Part shown: positions 40,416 through 63,025 of the stretch, piece after piece
Numbering within the stretch: the first letter of the stretch is position 1
How the letters are laid out: each line of letters starts with the position of its first letter
Assembly: GCF_000980875.1 (NCBI RefSeq)
Contig: NZ_LAYO01000109.1
Coordinates: forward strand, 62,001-126,000
Reading direction: 5' to 3'
DNA: 64,000 bases
Source: Leucobacter sp. Ag1
GTDB taxonomy: Bacteria > Actinomycetota > Actinomycetes > Actinomycetales > Microbacteriaceae
Translations under genes and position numbers: made by a program
Notes under the pieces: model-generated
What the model was told of the DNA's origin: nothing
Seen by the model: only the letters and a program-made list of their open reading frames with translations
The model's database searches: none

Positions 40416-41318
40416 TCAGAGCGCGTTGTATGCAGCGCGCAGCAGCTCGGCCGCCTCGGTCGGCGTCTTGCCGACCTTGACGCCCGCGGCCTCGAGGGCC
40501 TCCTTCTTGGCCTGCGCAGTACCCGCCGAGCCCGACACGATGGCGCCGGCGTGGCCCATGGTCTTGCCCTCGGGCGCGGTGAAGCCCGCGACGTAGCCGA
40601 CGACCGGCTTCGTCACGTTCGCCTTGATGTACTCCGCCGCGCGCTCCTCGGCGTCGCCGCCGATCTCGCCGATCATGACGATCGCCTTCGTCTCGGGATC
40701 GGCCTCGAACGCGGCGAGCGCGTCGATGTGGGTGGTGCCGATGATCGGGTCGCCGCCGATGCCGATGGCGGTCGAGAAGCCGAGATCGCGCAGCTCGTAC
40801 ATCATCTGGTAGGTCAGGGTGCCCGACTTCGAGACGAGACCGATCGGGCCCTTGCCCGTGATCGTCGCGGGAGTGATGCCCGCGAGCGCCTCGCCCGGGG
40901 TGATGATGCCGGGGCAGTTCGGCCCGATGATGCGGGTCTTGTTTCCGGTGGCCTTGGCGTGCGCCCAGAGCTCCGCGGAGTCCTTGACCGGAACGCCCTC
41001 GGTGATGATCACGAGCAGGCCGATGCCCGCGTCGATGGCCTCGACGGCCGCGTCCTTGGTGAAGGCCGGGGGCACGAAGGCGACCGAGACGTCGGCGCCG
41101 GTCGCGGCCATCGCCTCGGCGACCGACGCGAACACGGGGAGCTCGACGGCGTTGCCGGTGGCGTCGGTGTGCGACACGGTGGTGCCGGCCTTGCGGGCAT
41201 TCACGCCGCCCACGATCTGGGTGCCCGCGGCGAGCATGCGCGCGGTGTGCTTGGTGCCCTCGCCGCCGGTGATGCCCTGGACGATGACCTTGGAATCCTT
41301 GTTCAGGAAGATCGACAT
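40416..41318 (-). CDS. sucD: succinate-CoA ligase (ADP/GDP-forming) alpha subunit
   Basis: This 300-residue subunit binds CoA and carries the phosphohistidine. The N-terminal CoA fold has [28 protein letters not shown] lies near 125, and the active-site His is in [17 protein letters not shown] near 245. It follows sucC by 33 bases on the minus strand and ends at a strong hairpin. Together they make succinate and a nucleoside triphosphate from succinyl-CoA in the TCA cycle. Confidence 0.97.
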
Positions 41319-41351: not shown

Positions 41352-42518
41352 TCAGCGGGCGTTGGCCAGCTCGGCGGCCTTGTCGGCGCCCTCGTCCATG
41401 GTGGCGGCCTGGGTCACGAGCGGGTGCGCGGCCTCGTTCAGGATCGCGCGGCCCTCTTCGACGTTGTTGCCGTCGAGGCGCACGACGAGCGGCTTGTTCG
41501 CAGCGTCGCCGAGCTTTGCGAGCGCGCCGACGATGCCGTTGGCGACGGCGTCGCAGGCGGTGATGCCGCCGAACACGTTGACGAACACCGACTTGACCTG
41601 CGGATCGCCGAGGATCACGTCGAGGCCGGCGGCCATGACCTCGGCCGAGGCGCCGCCGCCGATGTCGAGGAAGTTGGCGGGCTTCACGTCGCCGTGCTTC
41701 TCGCCCGCGTAGGCGACGACGTCGAGCGTCGACATGACGAGGCCCGCGCCGTTGCCGATCACGCCGACCTCGCCGTCGAGCTTCACGTAGTTGAGGTCCT
41801 GCGCCTTGGCCTTCGCCTCCAGCGGATCCTCGGCGGCCTTGTCCTCGAGCTCGGCGTGGCCGGGCTGGCGGAAGTCGGCGTTGGCGTCGAGCGACACCTT
41901 GCCGTCGAGCGCGACGATGTCGCCGGCGCCGGTGAGCACGAGCGGGTTCACCTCGACCAGGGTCGCGTCCTCGCCCGCGTAGACCTCGTAGAGCTTCTGG
42001 AACACGGGGACGACCTTGCCCACGAGCTCCTCGGGGAACTTCGCGGCGCGCGCGATCTCCTCGGCCTTGGCCGCGTCGATACCCGCGATCGGGTCGACCT
42101 CGATGCGCGCGAGCGCCTCGGGCTTCTCGACGGCGAGCACCTCGATCTCCATGCCGCCCTCGACGGAGCACAGCGAGAGGTAGGAGCGGTTGGCGCGGTC
42201 GAGCAGCACGGAGAAGTAGAACTCCTGCTTGATGTCGGCGCCCGCGGCGACCATGACCCGGTTGACCGTGTGGCCCTTGATGTCGAGGCCGAGGATCGCC
42301 TGCGCGGCCTCGAACGCCTCGTCGGGGGTCTTCGCGACCTTGACGCCGCCGGCCTTGCCGCGCCCGCCGACCTTCACCTGGGCCTTGACGACCACCACGC
42401 CGCCGATCTTCTCGGCTGCCGCGCGCACTTCCTCGGGAGTATCCGCGACGATCCCGGGGAGCACCGGCACCCCGTATCGTTCGAAGAGATCTCGTGCCTG
42501 GTACTCGTACAGATCCAC
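41352..42518 (-). CDS. sucC: succinate-CoA ligase beta subunit
   Basis: This 388-residue subunit has an ATP-grasp domain ([19 protein letters not shown] at the start, [17 protein letters not shown] near 47) and the C-terminal CoA-ligase domain ([18 protein letters not shown] near 310). The GTG at 42518 is preceded by TAAGGA, seven bases away. A perfect palindrome at 42568-42581 lies near its promoter. Nucleotide preference (ADP or GDP) cannot be settled by eye. Confidence 0.97.
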
Positions 42519-42567
42519 GTACTGTCCTTACATGCTAGGAGTATTGGGGGTCCGAGGCAGAAAAATG

Positions 42568-42581
42568 TCTCGATGTCGAGA
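42568..42581. promoter_or_regulatory. palindrome upstream of sucCD
   Basis: TCTCGA-TG-TCGAGA is a perfect 6+6 inverted repeat about 50 bases before the sucC start, just upstream of a possible promoter (AATACT near 42540-42545). It is a candidate binding site for a TCA-cycle regulator; no regulator is named. Confidence 0.6.
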
Positions 42582-42688
42582 TAAGTCGACCAGTGCCCGA
42601 GTCTACCATCGCAGCCTGTCCGTCCCGCGACCGCGCCACCCCGCCAGGGCTTCCGATTCCCTCGGTCCGCGCCCCGGCCGCACGCGCC

Positions 42689-44263
42689 TCAGCGTTCGGC
42701 GATCCGGCCCAGATCCAGCCCGGAGGACGCGGCCTGGGCCGCGTCCAGCTGCGCCACGTACTCGTTCTTCAGCTTCTTGCCGTCCCCCGCGAACGGTCCG
42801 GTGCGGAAGCCGTAGAAGGCGAGCGTCGGCAGCATCGCGTCGGCCGAGGTGAGGATCGCGTTGTGGAAGTCGCCGTTGCCGCGCCGCAGTTCGGCGAAGA
42901 TCCCGGCGGCGAGCGCATCCTCGTCGAGCGCGTCCCGATCCGCGTCGGCGGTGAGCTGCAGGGCGAGGTGCAGCTGCCGATCGCCGTTCGCGTCCTCGAA
43001 CGAGATGAGCCGGTGGTTCTCGATCGCGTGCAGCAGCACCGGATCGGCGTTGATCACGTCGCGCAGCGAGTCCGGCCCGATCACCGCGCCGTTGAAGTCG
43101 ACCGAGAGGTCGCTGCGCCCGTAGTGGAACAGCAGGGGCAGGTCGAGCATCTGCCGCTGCTTCAGGTGCTGCAGTCCGAGCTCCTCGAGGACCGGTTCCA
43201 GCTCGCGCAGCCGCAGCACGTGCCCGCGGTCGTGAATGTTGTAGCGGATCCGGGGGTTCAGGTTCTCGGCACGCGCGATCGTGACGAGCAGTTCGCCCGC
43301 CGCGTTGGTCTCGATCTGGTAGTTGAAGGGATTGAACTGGAAGATCATCGGCAGCACCCCGTACTCGTGGCGCTTGCTGATGCGGTGAGCCAGTTCGGGG
43401 TGCTCGACGAGCGCGCGGCGCAGATCGACGGTGAGGTCGGTCTCGATCGCCAGGTTGATCTCGAGATCGCTCGCCCCGTAGCTGCCGTACGCGGCGTGCG
43501 CCGTGCGCAGGATGTGGTCGCGCATGCTCTCGCTGATGCCCTCGCCACCGAACGCCGCGACGATGTCGTACTGCGACCAGTCGAGGCGGTCGTCGTCGAA
43601 CAGCGCTTTGAGGAACGGCGGGTAGCTGAGGATCACGTAGGTGAAGCCGGTGCCGAACTCGCGCATCGTGGCGATGATCTTCGTCGCGTCCGGCCCGATC
43701 GACTTGATCATGGTGACGTCGGTGAGCGACGTGGTCACGTTCATGCCGGTCGCCCACGCGCCGAGCGAGAACGCGTTGAGCACGAACGGGGGTTTCGTCA
43801 TGCTGCTCTCGGTGTTCGAGAAACCGAGCTGCAGCAGCTGCCGCGTCGCGATCCGCTCGCGCGGCCCGCGCACCCAGCTCGTCGGCGTGCCCGAGCTGCC
43901 GCTCGACTCGTCGACCACCACGCCGCGGCGCGGGATCCGGCCGTCGACGCAGCGCTCGGGGATCGACCACCGCTTGATGTAGCTGTCCTTGTCCATCTCG
44001 GGGATCGTCCGCAGCGCGGCCGCGATCCCACCGCGGGTGCGCAGCCGCGTCGGGAACCCCCGTTCGCCGAGGAACGCCCGGTAGGCGGGCACCCGCTTCG
44101 CCGTGCGTTCGAAGGTGCGCCAGGCCCGCCAGCGCCCCAGGGTCCAGCGCAGCGGCTCGATCCCGGGTGCGAGCAGGATCTTGTGGGTGTTCACGCGCGG
44201 CATGAACAGGCGGACCAGGTGGTCCTGGATCCAGACGAAGGTGAAGACGGCGGCGCGTTTCAT
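42689..44263 (-). CDS. PaaK/CapK-like adenylate-forming enzyme
   Basis: This 524-residue member of the phenylacetate-CoA ligase-like branch of ANL enzymes has the nucleotide loop DESSGSSGTPTSW near 120, AAFGGEGIS near 240 and YGSYGASDLE near 262. An A8-like RSDLSVDFNGAVIGPDSL lies near 380, and basic GDGKKLKNEY near 500 could supply the late Lys. It should activate a carboxylate as an acyl-adenylate, with or without CoA. The first 60 residues are basic and amphipathic rather than a signal peptide. The start overlaps the nitroreductase stop by four bases (ATGA), so the two are coupled. No thiolation domain or synthase is nearby. The substrate is unknown. Confidence 0.8.
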   Translation of the reverse strand: MKRAAVFTFVWIQDHLVRLFMPRVNTHKILLAPGIEPLRWTLGRWRAWRTFERTAKRVPAYRAFLGERGFPTRLRTRGGIAAALRTIPEMDKDSYIKRWSIPERCVDGRIPRRGVVVDESSGSSGTPTSWVRGPRERIATRQLLQLGFSNTESSMTKPPFVLNAFSLGAWATGMNVTTSLTDVTMIKSIGPDATKIIATMREFGTGFTYVILSYPPFLKALFDDDRLDWSQYDIVAAFGGEGISESMRDHILRTAHAAYGSYGASDLEINLAIETDLTVDLRRALVEHPELAHRISKRHEYGVLPMIFQFNPFNYQIETNAAGELLVTIARAENLNPRIRYNIHDRGHVLRLRELEPVLEELGLQHLKQRQMLDLPLLFHYGRSDLSVDFNGAVIGPDSLRDVINADPVLLHAIENHRLISFEDANGDRQLHLALQLTADADRDALDEDALAAGIFAELRRGNGDFHNAILTSADAMLPTLAFYGFRTGPFAGDGKKLKNEYVAQLDAAQAASSGLDLGRIAER

Positions 44264-45345
44264 GCGGGTGCCCCTTCCAGGGTCATGGCGGCGGCCGGCC
44301 TGCGGTGCGCGAGCGGCGGGGTCTCGCTGTAGCCGAAGCGGAACAGCATCCAGGCCAGTCGCTCCCCCGCTTCGTCCGCTTGGACCGCCTCGGCGAACAG
44401 GGCGTGCGAGCGCGGGTTCGTGATGACGGTGCCGAAGGGGTGCAGCACGACGCCGTGGCGGTGCAGCTCGAGCCAGATCCGCATGAACGTGCGCCCGGCC
44501 TCGATGTAGTCGGCGGGGCCGCCGAAGGGCCCCTCGATCCAGCCGAGCTGGTGCACGCCGCGCATGGTGCGCAGGTACACGCTGCGGATCAGCGCGCCGA
44601 TGACCGGTGCGCGCCAGAGCCCGCGGTGCGCCATCGCGTAACGCAGGATCGGGCCGGGCATGAGCATCGCCTCGGCCGAGAGCCCGTCGGCCTTCGCGGC
44701 GGCTTCGCCCTTCGAGAAGCGGAGCCAGTGCATGATCTCGCCGTAGACGGCATCGTTCTCGAGGTCGTCGAAGAGGGTCGCCTGGTTGACGTGCACGATC
44801 CGGCGCACGAGCGCGGCGTCATCGGTCGAGCGGAACTCGTAGCCGGCGTCGGTGCAGATGCGTGCAGCCTCGGCGCGGACCTCGGCCGGCACCGCCCGGC
44901 GGTCGTAGGGTCGGCGCGAGGTGCGGCGGGTACGGAACCGGTCGAGGGCGGCGCGGGCCTCGGCGTCGCGCTCCGTCTCGCCCGGGTCGTCGGGATCGCG
45001 GGGCACCAGTTCGACCTCGGCGATGCGGTGCTGCCGGTCCGGGCTGTCGAAGTCCATCTCGGTGTGGTCGAGCGTCTCGCGCACGTCGTAGCCGTGGGCC
45101 GCGGCGACCACGGCGAGCGATTCGAGGAAGACGCCGGCGCAGACGTGCCCGAACGGGATCCCGAACGATTCGGCGGGGAGCCCGAGGTCGAGGTCGTAGC
45201 TGACCGTGGCACGGAGCACCGCGCCGGATCCGCCGTCGACCGCGGCGTGCGGCCGCACCTTGATGGGCTGGGAGTTGTGCGGGCTCGGGTAGTTGCGGGC
45301 GTCCTCCAGGATCGCCGGCCACGGATTCAGCGTCGAATCGCTCAT
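44260..45345 (-). CDS. nitroreductase family FMN-binding protein (Acg-like)
   Basis: This 361-residue protein has the early FMN-binding phrase YPSPHNSQPIKVRPH near 18-33 and RRTSRRPYDRRAVPAEV near 135, which are marks of the larger nitroreductase group that includes Acg. The C-terminal half is helical (RTFMRIWLELHRHGVVLHPFG near 288-308). It probably binds FMN as a dimer and does reductive or dehydrogenating chemistry, or stores flavin. TAGACT lies seven bases before the ATG at 45345, so translation is likely leaderless. It heads the two-gene unit with the adenylate-forming enzyme. Confidence 0.8.
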   Translation of the reverse strand: MSDSTLNPWPAILEDARNYPSPHNSQPIKVRPHAAVDGGSGAVLRATVSYDLDLGLPAESFGIPFGHVCAGVFLESLAVVAAAHGYDVRETLDHTEMDFDSPDRQHRIAEVELVPRDPDDPGETERDAEARAALDRFRTRRTSRRPYDRRAVPAEVRAEAARICTDAGYEFRSTDDAALVRRIVHVNQATLFDDLENDAVYGEIMHWLRFSKGEAAAKADGLSAEAMLMPGPILRYAMAHRGLWRAPVIGALIRSVYLRTMRGVHQLGWIEGPFGGPADYIEAGRTFMRIWLELHRHGVVLHPFGTVITNPRSHALFAEAVQADEAGERLAWMLFRFGYSETPPLAHRRPAAAMTLEGAPA

Positions 45346-45352
45346 GCGGCCG

Positions 45353-45358
45353 AGTCTA
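45353..45358 (-). promoter_or_regulatory. leaderless -10 for the nitroreductase pair
   Basis: TAGACT on the minus strand lies seven bases before the ATG at 45345. Confidence 0.65.
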
Positions 45359-45500
45359 GGTGCGGCTCATGCGGGGTGCGACATATGGGCGGTCCGAACG
45401 CTCGGCCGGATAGGAACCGTCGGCCGGATCCCCGCGCCGGATTCGTCCGACTGGGGCTGGATACCCGGTTGAGCGCACACGCCCCTCGACGGCGCCCGCG

Positions 45501-48113
<2,613 letters not shown>

Positions 48114-59186: not shown

Positions 59187-63025
<3,839 letters not shown>

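Follow-up and report, generated by a model that had tools for sequence, protein, structure and literature searches.

The stretch of Leucobacter sp. Ag1 DNA analysed here (64,000 nucleotides, positions 62,001 to 126,000 of contig NZ_LAYO01000109.1; hereafter the window) carries two neighbouring genes on the minus strand between pcrA and sucC. In the list of open reading frames (ORFs) of the 64-kb window these encode a flavoprotein of the flavin-dependent oxidase (FDO) kind, a group whose known members act on lipid-like molecules, and an adenylate-forming ligase (Table 1). The initial annotation had described the two genes as overlapping by four bases and both ORFs were indeed recovered with a stop and a start codon common to positions 44260 to 44263. 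The pair is a real, conserved two-gene system, whose pairing is well documented and whose chemistry we infer. It had also been called undescribed, and no paper on it was found in the open-access literature searched, a body of work that lies apart from subscription papers and preprints.

Table 1. Features of the flavoprotein-ligase pair and its surroundings, in window coordinates
Feature	Position	Strand	Basis or remark
Acg-like flavin mononucleotide (FMN) oxidoreductase, FDO kind, 361 amino acids	44260..45345	-	ORF; NF047509 105.5 bits; predicted fold compared with 2YMV
PaaK-like adenylate-forming ligase, 524 amino acids	42689..44263	-	ORF; predicted fold compared with PaaK1 2Y27
4-base stop/start overlap, ATGA	44260..44263	-	flavoprotein stop and ligase start
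GGAAGGGG, Shine-Dalgarno-like	44271..44278	-	7 nt before ligase ATG, within FDO gene
TAGACT, -10-like hexamer	45353..45358	-	ends 7 nt before FDO ATG; leaderless arrangement
FDO motif PSPHNSQP, residues 20-27	45265..45288	-	conserved columns of alignment
FDO motif R-x-T-x-R, residues 140-144	44914..44928	-	conserved columns of alignment
Ligase phosphate-binding loop ESSGSSGTPTSW, residues 119-130	43874..43909	-	conserved columns of alignment
Ligase K499, candidate catalytic lysine, C-terminal domain	42767..42769	-	invariant column
pcrA	45501..48113	-	upstream of pair; gene name by eye
sucC	41352..42518	-	downstream of pair; gene name by eye
sucD	40416..41318	-	downstream of pair; gene name by eye
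Weak terminator-like stem after ligase	42568..42581	-	1 found, mean of 1.0 in shuffles; not significant

In a collection holding one genome per species, 352 stretches were found to encode a relative of the ligase and the best 80 of these 352 were kept as named loci, those closest to the window pair being from Leucobacter. A flavoprotein gene lies directly upstream of the ligase gene and on the same strand in 79 of these 80 loci, and the 4-base stop/start overlap is present in 60. The single exception, L122, matches ligase residues 81-524 only. The paired loci span Actinomycetota, Alphaproteobacteria and Bacteroidota; the two genes travel together in at least three phyla. The conserved two-gene unit proposed in the initial annotation is therefore borne out among the closest ligases, where co-occurrence is the rule.

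A second sample, drawn partly from the same genomes as the named loci, consisted of 17 whole genomes in which the ligase was matched at E <1e-60, eight of them from 100 relatives of the window's genome and nine more from a phylum set. The FDO gene was present in the stretch read in 16 of the 17, G481 being without it. Each gene was detected in eight of the 100 relatives, and the two are adjacent in six (G000, G020, G030, G036, G050 and G094). In G060 both belong to an operon of more genes; the ligase gene of G066 is accompanied by an FDO gene that lies beyond the distance allowed in that search; and G075 shows a weak FDO match only. Among 396 genomes of the phylum a ligase match was found in 37, ten of which (the window's own genome included) fall at E <1e-60; three of the other 27 were inspected (G169, G318 and G175) and have no FDO gene in the stretch. 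The equivalent phylum samples for L127 (Sphingomonas) and L133 (a metagenome-assembled genome of Cytophagales) gave matches at 1e-20 in 4/299 and 2/247 genomes respectively, the query genome being counted in each case, and the cassette is therefore rare and patchy in these phyla. Two of the matching genomes, G620 and G882, have no FDO gene nearby.

The ligase and the FDO also diverge together. Their pairwise distances correlate with r = 0.961 (70 of the 80 loci), a value reached in 0/1000 permutations, and the correlation is 0.67 within the middle range of distances. When 1,123 neighbour proteins of 91 loci were clustered, the pair fell in one cluster covering all 91 loci. The next largest cluster was limited to 14 Curtobacterium loci, and where a cluster spans several genera it represents a large, general family, for instance ABC ATPases (10 loci) or response regulators (6). 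It is conceivable that the two proteins are merely co-expressed, the ligase serving as a CoA-ligase for acid salvage and its partner as an Acg-like protein that sequesters FMN, and a storage role has been proposed for Acg (PMC11841060, in the portion consulted). We consider this very unlikely, since without a joint function it is difficult to account for two genes that are almost always paired and whose products diverge in step across phyla. Several other candidates were discarded. The one apparent gene fusion, a single 883-residue frame in L116, proved to be a frameshift since the FDO homology changes frame. A defence system was set aside after PADLOC returned 0 families for both proteins, as was carriage by phage, no phage record matching the ligase; two plasmid records match it, both at <60% identity.

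Profile scans of the 524-residue window protein gave no match in Pfam or NCBIfam, and both databases scarcely recognise its family as a whole. Across 39 family members, two have a hit to a single Pfam family (AMP-binding_C_2) and no NCBIfam model is hit by more than 13, these matches being weak and the models PaaK-like or for other acyl-CoA ligases. TIGR02155, the phenylacetate-CoA ligase model, matches six of the 39 (best E 6e-9) below its cut-off of 646.3 bits, and does not match the window ligase itself. A profile of 16 ligase sequences searched against the PDB nevertheless led to PaaK (2Y4O, E 2.9e-16), and in structural comparison the predicted model came closest to PaaK1 (2Y27; Z 28.5, 405 residues aligned at 3.4 Å). 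The model has a mean predicted local distance difference test score (pLDDT) of 84.5, with residues 122-125 of the phosphate loop below 50. Further matches were to HCL and BT_0428 and, below these, to the PaaK-family AMP ligase 6SIX (Z 26.1), AjiA1 (Z 25.6), ClxA (Z 25.4) and NatL2 (6TM4, Z 25.3). On the evidence of this model the ligase has the PaaK fold of the ANL superfamily, as the initial annotation had supposed. Seven residues of its loop (E119, S120, S121, G122, G125, T128 and W130) are invariant in the 39 sequences, as are the motifs ESSG, RYN-x-HD (RY-x3-D) and GRxD, which align with PaaK. The C-terminal lysine K499 is invariant both in this set and in the 16-sequence alignment, and presumably corresponds to Lys422 of PaaK, although no residue alignment reached K499. 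Neither the loss of the candidate lysine nor a rarity of co-occurring homologues, which the initial annotation had named as grounds against its reading, was observed. A hydrophobic stretch at the N-terminus was seen in 36 of the 54 ligases scored; the window ligase, at 1.12, falls under the threshold of 1.6.

The flavoprotein is scored by the Acg family model NF047509 under its cut-off of 199 bits (Table 1). Its predicted structure (pLDDT 91.4) has MsAcg as best match along its length (2YMV; Z 31.3, 300 residues aligned at 3.0 Å; next match Z 16.5), which is also, according to the part of PMC12856293 consulted, the FDO of solved structure nearest to TrzS. The predicted model agrees with the Acg-type fold claimed in the initial annotation and identifies the protein as a single-chain pseudo-dimer of the FDO (Acg/TyzC) subgroup of the NTR superfamily. 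P20, H23, N24, Q26 and P27 are invariant in 36 sequences, as are R140, T142 and R144. In a wider alignment of 58 rows (29 two-gene, 5 ligase-first, 20 Acg and 4 of 12 TrzS-type), P20, N24, Q26 and P27 are also found in 20/20 Acg rows and in the 4/4 aligned TrzS rows, R140 in 58/58 rows and T142 and R144 in nearly all. These conserved motif residues probably bind FMN. TrzS residue R540 was placed in two ways: R/Q/D spacing leads to D194 or A177, neither an arginine, and holds only in L155, at two arginines, out of 12 loci, and counting from likely starts leads to R209 (Arg in 32/34); the placements of R540 and Q651 are not secure. In a tree, all 34 ligase-linked FDOs lie on one side of a single branch (support 100/99), with the 20 Acg-type and 12 TrzS-type proteins on the other. 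The ligase-first FDOs sit on long branches, and the order among them is uncertain. TyzC stands outside this tree and the sequence comparisons.

Most loci have the FDO gene first and the ligase gene second, with a more distant set being ligase-first. A rarer four-gene form has the order ligase, small protein, GNAT-like protein and FDO (L051, L052 and L058). L060 retains this order with the small gene uncalled and a gap of 491 bases left in its place, and L059 has the ligase followed by the FDO with no GNAT-like gene. The small protein begins RTTDFS or RTRDFS (L051 8893-9891, L052 7568-8047, L058 7163-7609); that of L052 has a below-cut-off match to Monooxy_af470-like (PF13826, 20.5 of 25 bits) and that of L051 none. 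Kinship of the GNAT with known N-acyl amino acid synthases was considered and rejected, a profile search of the PDB giving weak matches, mostly to ordinary GNATs. In L053 (5056-6360) a membrane acyltransferase (PF01757) shares a 4-base overlap with the FDO gene, in one genome. In L189 (6359-8631) a distant PaaK-like ligase directly follows an exosortase-associated acyltransferase (TIGR03694, E 1.1e-62), with no FDO gene nearby. The observation in the initial annotation that no regulator accompanies the genes holds beside the window pair but not in some of its relatives, as genes judged by eye to encode a histidine kinase and a NarL-type regulator adjoin the cassette in L050, L053, L054 and L061 (the last without an FDO gene), and in no other locus. 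In L047 (9713-11694) the pair is followed by two GGDEF (diguanylate cyclase) genes and in L048 (3232-5303) by two similar ones, these being the only loci concerned. The trzAS genes of Mycobacterium tuberculosis are reported to lie next to cyclic di-GMP genes (PMC12856293, in the portion consulted).

A leaderless promoter had been proposed for the pair, and this is supported by the hexamer immediately before the FDO start (Table 1). Of 62 high-GC loci, 25 have a TANNNT hexamer 5-8 nt ahead of a candidate FDO start, against counts of 0-4 at nine of ten shifted positions and 14 at the other, 20 nt further up, which is perhaps a leadered form. The 16 low-GC loci are uninformative (6 against 2-10 at shifted positions). 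None of the 25 hexamer-preceded starts has a Shine-Dalgarno match, GAGG being present in the Curtobacterium loci, and a sigma-70 scan found no two-hexamer promoter. As for the insertion site, matches to pcrA and sucC were 125-142 bp apart in four of 20 genomes of the genus (a set that includes one carrier of the pair, G030) and 1,238 bp apart in one. An empty pcrA-sucC site therefore exists, and the interval (window 42519-45500; L191-L210) seems to be a slot of variable content. The conserved backbone of the initial annotation is borne out only in part, pcrA lying beyond the 1.5-kb flank in the other 15 genomes.

The chemistry of the pair may be approached through relatives of the flavoprotein. 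In the Tyz pathway the N-acyl amino acid is supplied by TyzA; with N-acyl-tyrosine as substrate, TyzC carries out an O2-dependent desaturation and TyzB, a ThiF protein, an ATP-dependent cyclisation (PMC10404671). Both TyzC and TrzS are described as O2-dependent desaturases of N-acyl amino acids that act beside an ATP-dependent, adenylating ThiF cyclase and together with an N-acyltransferase (PMC10404671, PMC12856293); the consulted portions of these papers place cyclisation before desaturation for TrzS and leave the order in Tyz unfixed (PMC12856293). The same ThiF and nitroreductase genes are noted in N-acyl dehydrotyrosine clusters of other phyla (PMC12479983, in part). By analogy, the window pair may be a self-contained two-step module for acid activation and O2-dependent desaturation in which a PaaK-fold ligase replaces ThiF, a reading to which we give a probability of about 0.5. 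The ligase would activate a carboxylic acid, probably a lipid-like one, as an acyl-adenylate and, needing neither CoA nor a carrier protein, would transfer the acyl group to a nucleophilic nitrogen or oxygen. This nucleophile could be intramolecular, closing a ring as ThiF does in acyl-oxazolone synthesis, or it could be an amine. Before or after this step, an O2-dependent reaction of the FMN flavoprotein would create a C=C bond adjoining the activated carbon, in the manner of TyzC and TrzS. The expected product would be a dehydro-amide or an oxazolone-type small molecule; more generally, the pair probably makes a small oxidised molecule. Counted for this module are the 79/80 pairing, the r of 0.961, the Acg fold, the motif residues common to Acg and TrzS rows, the separate FDO branch, the four-gene form, the acyltransferase neighbour in L189 and the N-terminal hydrophobic stretches. 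NatL2 counts for it as well: in the consulted part of PMC7204872 it is a PaaK-type ligase that joins acids as esters without CoA en route to a benzoxazole, so PaaK-fold ligases serving heterocycle synthesis without CoA exist.

The initial annotation had instead envisaged that the flavoprotein reduces the acyl-adenylate to an aldehyde or a modified amide. Structural comparison of the ligase also brought up two phenazine biosynthesis proteins, 3L2K (Z 19.6) and 3HGV (Z 19.4), which we take to be EhpF with a link to carboxylate reduction and which would suit such a reaction. The characterised FDOs are however oxidases, and Acg, the closest solved flavoprotein, is said in the consulted part of a review not to use NADH or NADPH (PMC11841060). 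Reduction is thus improbable and probably the wrong direction, given what is reported of TyzC, TrzS and Acg (PMC10404671, PMC12856293, PMC11841060). Activation with oxidative desaturation is favoured because the characterised FDOs are desaturases and the pair combines a predicted oxidase of this kind with an ATP-using activator of carboxylates.

Two special cases of the desaturation module differ in what the ligase would do. In the first, the acyl-oxazolone pathway proper, it would stand in for ThiF/TyzB by cyclising an N-acyl amino acid via the adenylate, and desaturation of the product by the FDO would give a yellow azlactone lipid. The set of activities is similar to that of Tyz, Oxz and Trz, and a GNAT-like gene is present in four of the five ligase-first operons (L051, L052, L058 and L060, not L059), although this gene shows weak GNAT matches only, no tie to N-acyl amino acid synthases being evident. 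The two-gene cassette has no acyltransferase, and such a product is disfavoured because a search of 15 two-gene carriers for the GNAT of the four-gene form failed to find it in 14; we regard this first case as rather unlikely. In the second, the ligase would couple an acid to an amino acid or amine and so replace the acyltransferase, with the FDO desaturating the amide. Plant GH3 enzymes couple acids to amino acids or amines in this way. This would explain why two genes suffice, and GH3 amido synthetases do occur among the structural neighbours of the ligase (Z 14.4-15.9), yet PaaK (Z 28.5) ranks well above them, and this case too seems unlikely.

Several observations weigh against the module as a whole. 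Some ligases have no FDO gene in the stretch read, namely L061 (G481), L188 (G620) and L189 (G882) together with the remote L062, L063 and L064 (G169, G318 and G175). The four-gene GNAT was found in its four known carriers, with a homologue on another contig of G609 (110.6 bits, E 7e-32), and was not found in the remaining 15 of 20 genomes searched (the 14 two-gene carriers and G188). TIGR03694 was over its cut-off in one of 21 genomes only (G882). As these searches were mostly negative, no source of N-acyl amino acids is visible in most carriers. As regards the acyl-oxazolone case in particular, no N-acyltransferase was seen among the genes adjoining the window pair, and ThiF-type cyclases were matched by three of 1235 predicted proteins from the 80 named loci, 20 further loci and the whole window (L060 and L063 having no called genes there), all three from Promicromonospora and some 3.5 kb ahead of the ligase gene. 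Also against the module, 13 of the 14 Bacteroidota-type FDO frames read (L133-L144 and L190, not L145) begin with a twin-arginine-like RRxF[IL]K followed by a hydrophobic stretch, so that the membrane could separate one step from the other. No such start was seen in the actinobacterial FDO N-termini examined. One of these loci, L144, is labelled Polynucleobacter and has an FDO start identical to that of L141 from Flavobacteriales; it may be a misbinned contig.

More speculatively, the pair may be a widespread undescribed cassette in which a new PaaK-fold ligase family replaced ThiF as the ATP-using partner of the FDO, making acyl-oxazolones or dehydro-amides in many lineages with oxidation outside the cytoplasm in Bacteroidota, a proposal that we hold as tentative. 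The role of most Acg-type flavoproteins is regarded as an open question in the consulted portions of PMC10404671 and PMC11841060. A ligase family whose closest members are nearly always beside one Acg-type clade offers a direct handle on what that clade oxidises. Should the product be an oxazolone or a dehydro-amide, a class of lipid that is rare in bacteria would gain many more producers, and its synthesis could be reconstituted in vitro from only two enzymes.

Among known systems, PaaK and the PaaK-type AMP ligases NatL2, AjiA1 and ClxA share the predicted fold and the adenylation motifs of the ligase but have a structural identity of 13-20% to it; the window ligase matches no curated PaaK model and is longer, at 524 residues against 436-443 for PaaK chains. 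The Acg/Rv3131 family (NF047509) resembles the window FDO in predicted fold over its whole length and in the PSxHNxQP motif, and differs in lying on a separate branch and in the score of the window FDO, 105.5 bits against a cut-off of 199. TrzAS/OxzAB, a ThiF-FDO fusion, likewise ties adenylation to desaturation and has motif residues in common through the TrzS-type rows, but is a single protein with ThiF, and the TrzS-type FDO domains occupy a separate branch. In TyzABC (Rv2336, Rv2338c and Rv2337c; the acyl-tyrazolone pathway) an FDO of the Acg/TyzC kind is paired with an ATP-spending carboxylate enzyme (PMC10404671), the differences being that this enzyme is ThiF and not a PaaK-fold protein and that Tyz has a dedicated N-acyltransferase; TyzC was compared by description and not by sequence. 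The four-gene form comes to resemble the Tyz set, with the ligase in the place of ThiF.

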